A stretch of DNA of 34,190 nt from an uncultured Bacilli bacterium (GTDB lineage: Bacteria; Bacillota_I; Bacilli_A; RF39; UBA660), in assembly GCA_944372485.1 (NCBI GenBank), contig CALVZI010000048.1:1-34190 (forward strand), in the 5' to 3' direction. Under the pieces are notes generated by a model that made no database searches, had not been told where the DNA came from, and saw nothing but the letters and a program-made list of their open reading frames with translations. The position numbers were made by a program, and so were the translations under genes. This document shows, one piece after another, positions 3,633-16,646 of this stretch; within the stretch, counting starts at the first letter, position 1; the number at the start of each line of letters is the position of its first letter.

Positions 3633-4505
3633 ATTTTCTACCCATATTACATTAGTAACGTTTTGATTTTTCAAATATTCTTTTCCATCTTCTAAAGATA
3701 AAGTATAAAGTTTATAAGCAATAAGTGAAGATTTCACAAAATCATTACTTATAACACTAACACTTAAATGTTTTTGATAAGGATATTTAGTTGTAAAGTC
3801 AATTAATGGTGTATAACTAATACCATTAATAACACTATTATCACTCATTCCTATATTATAAACACTAATATTATTACCAGTTATTGTTTTAAAATATTGA
3901 TTAGTAACTGGCATATATAAAGCAATATCAAACTTATCTTCATAATGTTTACCAACACTAATATTACCATTATAATTAATCATATAAGATTCATCTTTTA
4001 AATATACTTCAATCTCTTTTATAATAAAAACTGGCATAATCATATCTAAATTTAAATCAAAATTACTAGATTCTAAATAACTATTATCTAATAATTTAAT
4101 TTTACTACTATTCTTAAAATCACTTAATTCATTATTTGTAGGTATTTTAGATTTTTCTAAATTATCTTTCCAAACTTCAATTAAACTATTATAATTCCAA
4201 AGTAATTCATAGTCATTTACTAATTTAATCATTTCATATATATCACTAGACACTTTAATTTTACCACTTTTGTTATTTATTTCTTCTAATTCATTACTAT
4301 ATTTTAATTCTAATTTTTGCATCTTATCAATTATTTCATTTAACTTTTTAGTTTTATTTTCTTTACTATAGATTGTAATTTCACAATTTTTATTAAAAAA
4401 AGTAAACTTTTCACGATATTGTTTTAAAGTATTTTTATTTAAAATAAAGAAAAACACTAACAACAATAATATTACAATACTAAAAAATATAATTCTTTTT
4501 TTCAT
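3603..4505 (-). CDS. Degenerate ApbE-like (FAD:protein FMN transferase fold) membrane-anchored protein
   Basis: A 300-aa protein with a single N-terminal membrane anchor (residues 5-22) and no lipobox cysteine. The remainder follows the ApbE layout: an N-terminal block with LELKYSNELEEIN, a central MINYNGNISVGKHYEDKFDI that matches the family's N-x-GGN...G...w-x-V-x-I block, then SYTPLIDFTTKYPYQK at the H-I-I-D-P-x-T-G-x-P site and SVSVIS further on. The catalytic features are lost: the DLGGIAKG-type flavin loop reads NLDMIMPVF, and the metal-binding D-A-x-x-T-A block reads KSSLIAYKL. Flavin transfer is therefore unlikely; a non-catalytic role is inferred. The start ATG overlaps the stop of the zinc-ribbon gene (TAATG), indicating translational coupling. 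Confidence 0.7.
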   Translation of the reverse strand: MKKRIIFFSIVILLLLVFFFILNKNTLKQYREKFTFFNKNCEITIYSKENKTKKLNEIIDKMQKLELKYSNELEEINNKSGKIKVSSDIYEMIKLVNDYELLWNYNSLIEVWKDNLEKSKIPTNNELSDFKNSSKIKLLDNSYLESSNFDLNLDMIMPVFIIKEIEVYLKDESYMINYNGNISVGKHYEDKFDIALYMPVTNQYFKTITGNNISVYNIGMSDNSVINGISYTPLIDFTTKYPYQKHLSVSVISNDFVKSSLIAYKLYTLSLEDGKEYLKNQNVTNVIWVENDQTVVTLNA

Positions 4506-5050
4506 TAAATAAAACCTCTAAACATATTAAAATTAACATATAAATAAAAAATTAAAACTAAAGCTAAAATTTCTATACCAATACAAATAAATGGTGGAAT
4601 TAAACTATTTTCTCTAAATTGTTTTTTGAATAAATATACAAAAATATAATTAGTTAAGAATCCATAAATAATACTTCTAAATAATAGTAATAACAACATC
4701 AAAAATAATGGTCCAGAAAGACCTCTAAAAATAACTACATAATATTCAAAAAATGATAAAGAAACATTAGAATATGCTAAATTTACAAACTTAATCATTA
4801 AAAACATATTAATAAAACTTAATATTGACAGAATACTTCCTAAAAGATAATAACCTTTATATAAATAATAATAATTAGTAAAAAAGAAAGCTCCTGCATT
4901 AAATTTTCTTTCAATAAATTTATCATAGTCATTACTTGGCTTTTCAACAACTGGTTGTTTTATTTGATATTCTTGGTTATCTTTGTTCATATAACCACAT
5001 TTCATACAATAATTATCTTGCATAATGGTTCCACATTTTGGGCACTTCAT
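4505..5050 (-). CDS. Zinc-ribbon membrane protein of unknown function
   Basis: A 181-aa protein. Residues 1-20 form a small zinc ribbon (MKCPKCG with YCMKCG, cysteines 3, 6, 15 and 18). A polar linker to about residue 45 and three or four membrane segments follow. The stretch FNAGAFFFTNYYYLYKGYY resembles the start of small membrane domains such as DUF2628, but I cannot assign it firmly. The ribosome-binding site GGTGATAG precedes the ATG. The stop overlaps the start of the ApbE-like gene, so the two probably work together at the membrane. No enzymatic motif is visible. Confidence 0.75.
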   Translation of the reverse strand: MKCPKCGTIMQDNYCMKCGYMNKDNQEYQIKQPVVEKPSNDYDKFIERKFNAGAFFFTNYYYLYKGYYLLGSILSILSFINMFLMIKFVNLAYSNVSLSFFEYYVVIFRGLSGPLFLMLLLLLFRSIIYGFLTNYIFVYLFKKQFRENSLIPPFICIGIEILALVLIFYLYVNFNMFRGFI

Positions 5051-5074
5051 ACTATCACCAAATATATTTTATCA

Positions 5075-5305
5075 TTATAAGATTATTTTTACAAGAATTA
5101 CATCTTCCCCTATTTTTTCTATTTGGGGCCATCTTACTTCTATTTCGTTAGCAGATGAGAACATAGATACAAAAAATTTAGATTTTTCTACAATTAAAGA
5201 TTCTAAATGTCCTTCTATATTAATATTTACATCAATTATATTACCTACTTTTTTACCATCTACTACATTTACTACATCTTTACTTTGTAAGTCTGAAAGT
5301 CGCAT
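5075..5305 (-). CDS. YlmC/YmxH-family PRC-barrel sporulation protein
   Basis: A 76-aa protein beginning MRLSDLQSKDVVNV, with DGKKVGNIIDV, IEVRWPQIEKIGEDVILV and the compact beta-barrel pattern of the YlmC/YmxH family. Members are short single PRC-barrel proteins, usually annotated as sporulation-associated; their molecular role is unknown. The length is normal for the family. It lies between the zinc-ribbon gene and the nucleotidyltransferase gene and is preceded by that gene's terminator, so it probably has its own promoter in the 5306-5336 gap. I cannot assign that promoter to a sigma factor with confidence. Confidence 0.85.
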   Translation of the reverse strand: MRLSDLQSKDVVNVVDGKKVGNIIDVNINIEGHLESLIVEKSKFFVSMFSSANEIEVRWPQIEKIGEDVILVKIIL

Positions 5306-13188: not shown

Positions 13189-13205
13189 ACTATCACCTCA
13201 ACCTT

Positions 13206-13234
13206 ATTATACTATAATTATATTATATTGAAAA
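13206..13234 (-). promoter_or_regulatory. fhs promoter
   Basis: Minus-strand TTTTCA (13229-13234), a 17-bp spacer and a perfect TATAAT (13206-13211), about 18 bases before the fhs ATG. Confidence 0.7.
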
Positions 13235-13255
13235 GAAAAAGATACTTTCGTATCT
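13234..13255 (-). terminator. Terminator of the 69-aa gene
   Basis: A 6-bp stem, AGATAC/GTATCT (13240-13255), with a GAAA tetraloop, followed by a T-rich stretch on the minus strand. It overlaps the stop codon of the 69-aa gene. The same hairpin occurs in the second repeat copy. Confidence 0.75.
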
Positions 13256-13463
13256 ATTTTACTTTAACTAATCTCTTTTCTCTATCCTGTAATTCTTCTT
13301 CTACACTACCCCCACAACAATAAGAACTACGATATCTATTTTTTTCAAGCATAGTATTAACTTGTTCAGTCATTTTCTTATTCATTTCTTTCATTCTATT
13401 TATTTGTTTTTCAGTTAATACTACACTCTCACCCTTAACCATATAAGCATCTTTTAAAATCAT
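13254..13463 (-). CDS. Small cysteine-containing protein of unknown function
   Basis: A 69-aa charged protein. It has a helical, Lys/Glu/Met-rich middle (LTEKQINRMKEMNKKMTEQV), then a YCCGG motif at about residues 48-52, and a basic end (REKRLVKVK). It has no signal peptide or membrane span. The ribosome-binding site is weak. It lies between the GC-rich 3' flank of the headless gene and the first repeat copy, inside the segment bounded by the direct repeats. It has no partner I can recognise. Probably expressed, since a clean terminator overlaps its stop. Confidence 0.55.
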   Translation of the reverse strand: MILKDAYMVKGESVVLTEKQINRMKEMNKKMTEQVNTMLEKNRYRSSYCCGGSVEEELQDREKRLVKVK

Positions 13464-13492
13464 TATATACCAACTTTCTTATATATTAAACA

Positions 13493-13548
13493 TTGCTCAC
13501 GCCGTTGCGTCCGGAAGTCTAAACCCTTCCAGGCCGCACTTTTACTTC
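13493..13548 (-). other. GC-rich post-coding flank with inverted repeat (IMH-like candidate)
   Basis: Directly after the stop of the headless gene, about 55 non-coding bases remain GC-rich. They contain an imperfect inverted repeat at 13507-13537: GCG/CGC, CC/GG and a 5-bp GGAAG/CTTCC core around an 8-nt loop. AT-rich sequence resumes at about 13492. A diverged copy of this flank lies at 14452-14521. In DGRs the initiation-of-mutagenic-homing site and a hairpin follow the variable region, and this layout is similar. The functional link is inference. Confidence 0.45.
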
Positions 13549-14367
13549 TCACCCAATTACATATGGGTCTTCTTTTGTTCCTGTCCCTGAGACAAATACT
13601 GTGTCGGATTTCAGATTAAGAGACGGGCGAACCCCATACCCAATATTCGCGCTGTCGTAGTTCACATAACCGCCACTGCCCACGTAGGCCACGCGGTAGG
13701 AATAGCCAGCATCAGGGGTTAAAGTCCATAAATAATCTCCATTATATAACCAATTATTTGTATAACAATCTTCTGCACTATCCCAGTTATATAACTCTTT
13801 AGCTAAACATGCACTTATTCCGGTTGTAGTTCCACCACTGGTTGCAAATCCATAATCACTTGCATACATTAATCCAACTTGTCCAGTCCACTCGGTTGCA
13901 TGTCCTTCATATACATTTATTCCACGTTCATCATTATACACACTTTGAACTAGTAAATCATTTGATTCAGATATACCACCTAAATTCCATGTAACTGTAT
14001 CAATCATTTGTTTTGCCTCAGTAGTAAGTCCACTTGATGCATAAGATCCTGTAGCATTATAATAATCGCCACTATTTAATAATTGTTGTAAACTTGCAGT
14101 AGTCCAATCATTTACATTATTAGTATCCCAGTCTATATATCCTATACCAGTATTTTTTATTAATTTTAATTTACCATCAAAAATTCCTATTATTCGCCAT
14201 AGCTGTGATTGCCCTAATACACCTGTTTGCACACATTCATATGTTATTCCATTAGTTCCCCAATCTTCCATTGCCTGTTGTTTTAATACTTCACATTCTT
14301 CAGAAGTACTTGTTGTTCCATATGTGTAATCAGGATATCCTTCTTCTTTTACTATAACAGAATATTC
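13549..14367 (-). pseudogene. Headless surface-type gene with DGR-like GC-rich variable 3' end
   Basis: The frame is open from the repeat boundary (14367) to a TGA at 13549, but it has no start codon with a ribosome-binding site. The first in-frame ATG (14269-14271, 240 codons from the end) has none, and upstream codons (DEYSVIVKEEGYPDYTYG) look like mid-protein. So the 5' end is missing, replaced by the fhs-type repeat. The protein has WRIIGIFDGKLKLIKN and ends DYLWTLTPDAG...YGVRPSLNLKSD...GTKEDPYVIG, like C-type-lectin-like or DUF6273-type domains. From about 13725 to the stop composition jumps to GC-rich (58 of 100 bases at 13621-13720 by my count), with many NNC codons (TAC, GGC, AAC, GAC, AGC) that neighbouring genes avoid. 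Such an end suggests a retroelement-diversified or recently transferred segment. Confidence 0.6.
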
Positions 14368-14436
14368 ATCACCTCAAACTTATTATACTATAATTATATT
14401 ATATTGAAAAGAAAAAGATACTTTCGTATCTATTTT
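14368..14436 (-). repeat. 69-bp direct repeat, copy 2
   Basis: Nearly identical to 13192-13260 (one difference seen). It carries the same terminator hairpin (about 14410-14431), TTTTCA/TATAAT promoter and GAGGTGAT. The sequence then passes directly into the headless gene without a usable start codon. The promoter is therefore probably live, but the message has no proper reading frame to begin. Confidence 0.9.
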
Positions 14437-14451
14437 TCTATAACCCAACAG

Positions 14452-14521
14452 TTATCTGTTCCATCCAAAAGTCTATAAACCTCCAAGCAACATTTTTGCT
14501 TCCTACCCAATAACATATGCC
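14452..14521 (-). other. Remnant of a second variable-gene 3' end and flank
   Basis: On the minus strand this segment reads EAYVIG and stop (compare EDPYVIG and stop in the headless gene), followed by a flank alignable to 13493-13548. Shared blocks include ATATGT.ATTGGGT, GAAG.AAAA.TG and AGACTT, and many differences are G-to-A or C-to-T. Only the last codons of the second gene remain, just downstream of ftsW. It shows that the post-coding flank travels with this type of gene end. Confidence 0.6.
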
Positions 14522-14550
14522 TCTTATCTAAGATAACTACAATATCGAAT

Positions 14551-16097: not shown

Positions 16098-16646
16098 ATG
16101 TTTAAAAAATTAAATATTTTAGATGAACGTGAAAAATGTCTCCATGAAGTAAGTAAAGAAGTTACTTTTCCACTAAGTAAAGAAGATAAAACTTTAATAG
16201 GGCGTTGTATAGATCATTTAACTTATAGTCAAATACCAAAATATGAGAAAAAATATGATTTAAGACCAGGAATGGGTTTAGCATTCCCACAACTTGGTAT
16301 ATTAAAACGTATTATTGTTATTGTTTATGAAGTAGATGAAGGCGTTTTTGACAATTATGTTTTTATTAATCCAAAAATAATTAGTAATAGCGAAGAAGTA
16401 ATTGCAGCTGAAGCTGGTGAAGGATGTCTTAGTGTAAATCGTGAAGTCGAAGGACATGTTCCTAGATATGCACGTATTACTGTTGAAGGATATGACGAAG
16501 ACGGAAATAAAATAAGAGTTCGTGCTCGTGAAGATTTAGCAATTGCCTTTCAACATGAGATTGATCATTTAAATGGTATATTATTTTTCGAAAAGATTGA
16601 TAAAAATCATAGATTTTATACAGAAAATGAAATAAGATTAATTTAA
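16098..16646 (+). CDS. def: Peptide deformylase
   Basis: A 182-aa metalloenzyme that removes the N-formyl group from nascent proteins. All three motifs are present: motif 1 GMGLAFPQLG (residues 58-67; the usual GxGLAAPQ with F for the second A), motif 2 EGCLSV with metal ligand Cys110, and motif 3 QHEIDHLNG with HEIDH at 153-157. The ribosome-binding site AGGAGGAG precedes the ATG. Length matches the type 2 enzymes of Gram-positive bacteria. It is a single gene between its own promoter and a bidirectional terminator. Confidence 0.96.
   Translation: MFKKLNILDEREKCLHEVSKEVTFPLSKEDKTLIGRCIDHLTYSQIPKYEKKYDLRPGMGLAFPQLGILKRIIVIVYEVDEGVFDNYVFINPKIISNSEEVIAAEAGEGCLSVNREVEGHVPRYARITVEGYDEDGNKIRVRAREDLAIAFQHEIDHLNGILFFEKIDKNHRFYTENEIRLI

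Follow-up and report, generated by a model that had tools for sequence, protein, structure and literature searches.

A GC-rich gene end in a Bacilli genome is, or was, the variable region of a DGR target and is now most likely an orphan relic

Introduction

Diversity-generating retroelements (DGRs) are known systems for the random rewriting of protein-binding surfaces. Genes of the DUF6273 type that carry a C-terminal variable region (VR) are a known type of DGR target (PMC11792537), and orphan and remote DGR targets have also been described. Closest to the locus reported here are those of Treponema denticola, in which VR-bearing targets occur in strains without core DGR parts or without a matching reverse transcriptase (RT) or template repeat (TR), and in which the remote SP32 target has a VR that fits another template type (PMC4891356). 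Thiohalocapsa PB-PSB1 is likewise similar in having several loci, some of them incomplete, and some VRs without a matching TR, for which action in trans has been proposed (PMC10907252). The same logic of TR, VR, RT and Avd is known from the BPP-1 phage DGR, which also has a GC-rich hairpin after the stop codon of its target (PMC3240598). A large contig-based survey worked with an approach that, by its own account, would not detect remote DGR targets (PMC8144416).

The DNA analysed here, hereafter the window, comprises 34,190 nucleotides and is contig C48 in the assembly of genome G000, which totals 1.18 Mb in 98 contigs and is 91% complete with 6.7% estimated contamination. A sequence-only reading of the window had proposed that the GC-rich end of a headless gene is the present or former variable end of a DGR target whose RT and template lie elsewhere, the main alternative being recent transfer from a GC-richer relative. 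We find that the window VR is a real and well explained further case of such a target.

Results

A headless target gene with a GC-rich end

The target frame lies on the minus strand, flanked by an FtsW/RodA-like gene and by fhs (formate-tetrahydrofolate ligase). It is a 274-aa stop-to-stop frame (13549..14373, minus strand) with its first ATG at 14271, and it can rightly be called headless: its 5′ end is without a start, and it is missing some 220 N-terminal residues found in a full-length 464-aa relative on contig C21 of G333, a congener recorded as an uncultured Bacilli bacterium. The fragment matches DUF6273 with E=1.5e-4, just below the curated cut-off, and full-length relatives carry an N-terminal hydrophobic stretch. 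A search of PDB sequences with the G333 relative gave no match, and an AlphaFold model (pLDDT 39) was too poor for confirming a lectin fold; the description of the gene as coding for a DUF6273-type, lectin-like surface protein is a putative one that draws on the sequence match to DUF6273. A 74-aa open frame between the VR gene and fhs (13254..13478, minus strand) has no convincing family match.

The composition of the gene end was as striking as the sequence-only reading had claimed. On recounting, positions 13621-13720 hold exactly 58 G or C in 100, against a mean of 25.3 (sd 6.3) for 100-bp segments across the window; the maximum is 59, at 13619, and outside 13300-13800 the highest value is 44. 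The switch close to the gene end is indeed sharp, with a 60-bp GC of 0.27 at 13710-13769 and of 0.50-0.60 at 13620-13739, and NNC codons do cluster there, making up 13 of 31 codons in the VR (42%) and 8 of 219 in the gene body (4%, p=1.3e-8), while GC3 is 0.65 in the VR and 0.13 in the body. The GC-rich stretch is made up of two separate parts, the VR (13622-13716) and a segment beyond the stop codon (13488-13552), between which GC is only about 40%.

The VR (13622..13716, minus strand) is GC-rich and NNC-rich and ends at GVRP codons; it was delimited by its A-restricted divergence from G333 C21 and its homology to TRs that belong to complete DGRs of other genera (both described below) together with the GC and NNC statistics. 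Its invariant 3′ anchor, GGGGTTCGCCCG (13622..13639, minus strand), spans the GVRP codons and is kept in G333 C21. TR/VR homology in G173, a genome of the same family, stops no more than a few bases from the corresponding point, and this IMH-like end may act as an IMH.

The post-stop segment (13488..13552, minus strand) is predicted to fold, as DNA, into a hairpin that has a loop of 8 nt on an interrupted 11-bp stem (−11.2 kcal/mol, z=−2.5). It is possibly a DGR target hairpin, although a GC-rich stem of 7-10 bp with a 4-nt GRNA loop after the VR, as in hairpins of the BPP-1 type, was not found in it. The segment has no Rfam match, and it is unlikely to be part of a TR because the TR/VR homology of G173 stops just past the GVRP-equivalent codons. 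A second copy of the target end and post-stop segment, AT-rich and decayed, is present at 14440..14530 (minus strand), with 73.5% identity to the post-stop segment over 68 bp.

Divergence from G333 is concentrated at template adenines

The VR region of the window and that of G333 C21 differ at 31 positions in 124 bp. To classify these sites we defined A sites as those with a majority of A in TRs from five other genera of the same family. Within an 82-bp core the two VRs differ at 22 of 29 template-A sites and at 5 of 53 others (p=1.3e-9); when C, G or T was used as the predictor in the same test, p exceeded 0.9. Differences by codon position (1/2/3) ran at 0.45/0.35/0.10 in the VR and at 0.25/0.23/0.34 in the gene body, so that the third position is the least variable in the VR and the most variable in gene bodies. 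These two patterns are hallmarks of adenine mutagenesis acting on AAY codons. As five VR differences fall at non-A template columns, none of the five proxy templates can be identical to the real one. The proxies came from a query with an inferred template in which A was placed at variable sites, and their selection was therefore not fully blind; the codon-position contrast is independent of how they were chosen.

The status of the proxies as real templates rests on their RT neighbours and on the TR/VR pair of G173. Template-like sequences in G148, G173 and G277 are non-coding and lie near RTs with the GxxxSQ motif, and G173 has a complete DGR whose TR and VR belong to the lineage of the window VR. 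Over 103 aligned bp the G173 TR and the VR of a nearby target mismatch at A, except for one mismatch at the extreme 3′ end, and the alignment runs from the counterpart of the window's GC step to slightly beyond the codons that correspond to GVRP. Weaker homologues, including many templates of this type, were found with the inferred-template search in 36 of 386 family genomes, a count that includes the window's own genome and G333.

Tandem arrays of 5-13 template-like non-coding units occur at four loci (L107:3740-7343 in G139 C11, L105:2267-3974 in G142 C50, L106:6844-8726 in G323 C4 and L108:6022-7229 in G243 C21), and those in L105 and L106 adjoin a DGR reverse transcriptase. Units deviate from their consensus mainly at A in L107 (p=1.5e-12) and L105 (p=1.1e-7), as if the templates had themselves been diversified or designed as a set; in L106 and L108 there is no clear A bias among units. 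We found no description of such tandem template arrays in a literature search.

The genome carries a DGR of another template lineage

As the sequence-only reading had supposed, a DGR reverse transcriptase lies elsewhere in the genome. Contig C77 carries an RT (4125-5126; RVT_1 5e-14) with the motifs LPIGNMSSQ (GxxxSQ) and YMDD, and along with it a bAvd-like ORF, a MutS-I-like ORF, a TR and a target that has two VR-like ends. The bAvd-like ORF (3791-4150) matches bAvd with E=1.9e-9 and 38.4 bits (curated cut-off 40), and NCBIfam DivGenRetAVD with 8e-10 and 39 bits (cut-off 80). The TR of this contig (TR1) and the VR of contig C18 mismatch at 15 of 22 A sites and at 3 of 60 non-A sites (p=1e-8), and from its sequence the C77 DGR looks to be in working order and to serve other targets.

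Both VR-like ends on C77 belong to a single protein (L010:1166-2998), one being internal and the other C-terminal; the C-terminal one differs from a second template, TR2, at 17 of 24 A sites and at 8 of 58 others. TR2 (L094:5652-5733) stands alone on C16, without an RT. It is syntenic with a complete DGR on G333 C7, and an RT has probably been lost at C16 because the G333 locus retains the complete DGR together with the same downstream 710-aa gene.

A protein search of the genome located 19 target-type places, counting that in the window, across about 14 contigs. Some target-type ends, for example that on C65, have no GC-rich VR; in the VR-bearing paralogues that were inspected, GC was 0.39-0.51 at the VR and 0.28-0.30 just upstream.

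The expectation of a near-identical template elsewhere was not confirmed, and the RT on C77 sits beside a different template. A cognate TR for 13622-13716 was not found in G000 (91% complete) or its genus, in 386 family genomes or 385 order genomes (the two samples overlap), in genome_contigs, where only the two G333 VRs matched, or in viral contigs. Phage and viral collections held no match to the VR or the protein, an alignment query giving one distant relative only. The C77 TR was considered as the template of the window VR and rejected, as it aligns poorly and belongs to a different VR lineage. We infer that the cognate template has been lost, rather than that it is missing from the assembly.

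Truncation of the gene and exchange with G333

Behind the fragment lies copy 1 of a 77-bp repeat (14368..14444, minus strand), with a terminator hairpin, a promoter-like AT tract and an RBS, fused to the headless gene via AGGTGAT; copy 2 is the upstream region of fhs (13192..13268, minus strand). The copies are 96% identical and are the only two strong ones in the genome. Copy 1 runs into the interior of the gene at AGGTGAT, and the same 7 bp occur in the RBS region of fhs and in the intact gene on G333 C103. Since AGGTGAT is thus present in both parents, the head of the gene was probably lost at a microhomology junction. With its head cut off at these 7 bp and a duplicate of the fhs promoter in front of what is left, the gene is probably a relic.

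The region from 12.85 to 16.44 kb is approximately 99.5% identical to G333, and beyond 16.44 kb identity is approximately 90%. The change is sharp, at 16439, within a peptide-deformylase-like gene (16098-16646), and would mark either an assembly chimera or a breakpoint of recombination. No difference separates the VR of the window from that in the exchanged block of G333 (261/261), and therefore no DGR has acted on it since the exchange; this fits an inactive site, the recency of the exchange keeping it short of proof. Inside the otherwise near-identical 3.6-kb block, seven differences from G333 fall within 43 bp (13792-13834). This cluster looks like a small conversion tract, and no donor for it was found among the three paralogues compared.

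In one sister genome, G028, the space between the ftsW-like gene and fhs is empty, and another, G164 (L054:1-1431), has a different DGR-type target gene directly upstream of fhs. We infer from these two arrangements that the site upstream of fhs may receive target genes repeatedly.

Discussion

We hold with high confidence that the VR was written by a DGR, that the gene was later decapitated and that what is left is most likely an orphan relic. Three mutually independent lines of evidence uphold the proposal of a present or former DGR variable end, namely the A-restricted divergence, the same-lineage TR/VR pair of G173 and the presence of an RT and a bAvd-like gene in the genome. Reverse transcription of a template RNA with AAY-rich codons would have introduced errors at adenines, and the resulting cDNA would have taken the place of the 3′ end in a DUF6273-type gene for a lectin-like surface protein while that gene was whole (mutagenic retrohoming), as happens in further targets of the DUF6273 type (PMC11792537). 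Writing from an AAY-rich template would thereby account for both the NNC codons and the jump in GC. Later recombination at AGGTGAT would have joined the interior of the gene to the duplicated fhs promoter and removed the head, leaving an orphan VR that is most likely unexpressed. This is the probable order of events, and expression has presumably been lost.

A second explanation is that the site is live, with the C77 RT diversifying it in trans from a template missing from the assembly. We consider this unlikely, although the genome has one RT and many dispersed targets, the orphan TR2 on C16 indicates that templates can be apart from an RT, the assembly is only 91% complete and trans action has been reported in Thiohalocapsa (PMC10907252). 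Against it, the gene is headless and has no start codon, the VR has stayed unchanged relative to G333 since the exchange, neither G000 nor G333 yielded a template and the TR on C77 is clearly of another lineage. A broader scheme, in which one RT serves dispersed templates and about 15 target sites across the chromosome of a small-genome Bacilli lineage, while headless copies are silent stores of VRs, passing from one species to another and recombining into full-length surface proteins, seems to us improbable. It is more doubtful still that the headless copy is a silent storage cassette giving its VR to full-length targets by recombination: the cluster at 13792-13834 does resemble a conversion tract and several paralogues are present, but no full-length gene with the window VR was found in G000 or G333 and the cluster fits none of the three paralogues compared. 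Least credible of all is that the gene end, or the entire gene, was recently acquired by horizontal transfer from a GC-richer bacterium, the GC step being the transfer boundary with no DGR involved. The block shared with G333 does show that DNA has been exchanged here. However, the partner's locus is equally AT-rich around the VR and the block far exceeds the GC-rich part, the GC step lies where TR/VR homology begins in G173, the VRs of the inspected paralogues in the same AT-rich genome are also raised in GC, and relatives diverge mostly at A-template positions. All of this makes the former main alternative unneeded.

For the reading as a DGR-written relic, the wider point is that an isolated, sharp step in GC and NNC codons where a gene ends can point to a DGR target that has no RT nearby, and such RT-distant targets are the class missed by the large contig-based survey (PMC8144416). 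Here a small-genome lineage has one recognised DGR RT alongside many dispersed VR targets, an orphan template and an orphan target, and the turnover of DGR parts, by RT loss, template loss and target decapitation, becomes testable between sister genomes.

The locus differs from each of the systems that it resembles. In the DGRs of Faecalibacterium prophages, too, the VR forms the C-terminal part of a DUF6273 domain; however, those targets are phage proteins, whereas the window gene lies among housekeeping genes and its full-length relatives have an N-terminal hydrophobic stretch (PMC11792537). The hairpin loop of BPP-1 is a 4-nt GRNA loop and that predicted in the window has 8 nt (PMC3240598). 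Thiohalocapsa PB-PSB1 has STAND/MoxR-associated targets, and diversification was shown there in natural samples (PMC10907252). In comparison with Treponema denticola (PMC4891356), the genome studied here has a DGR of another template lineage, and the target gene in the window is truncated.
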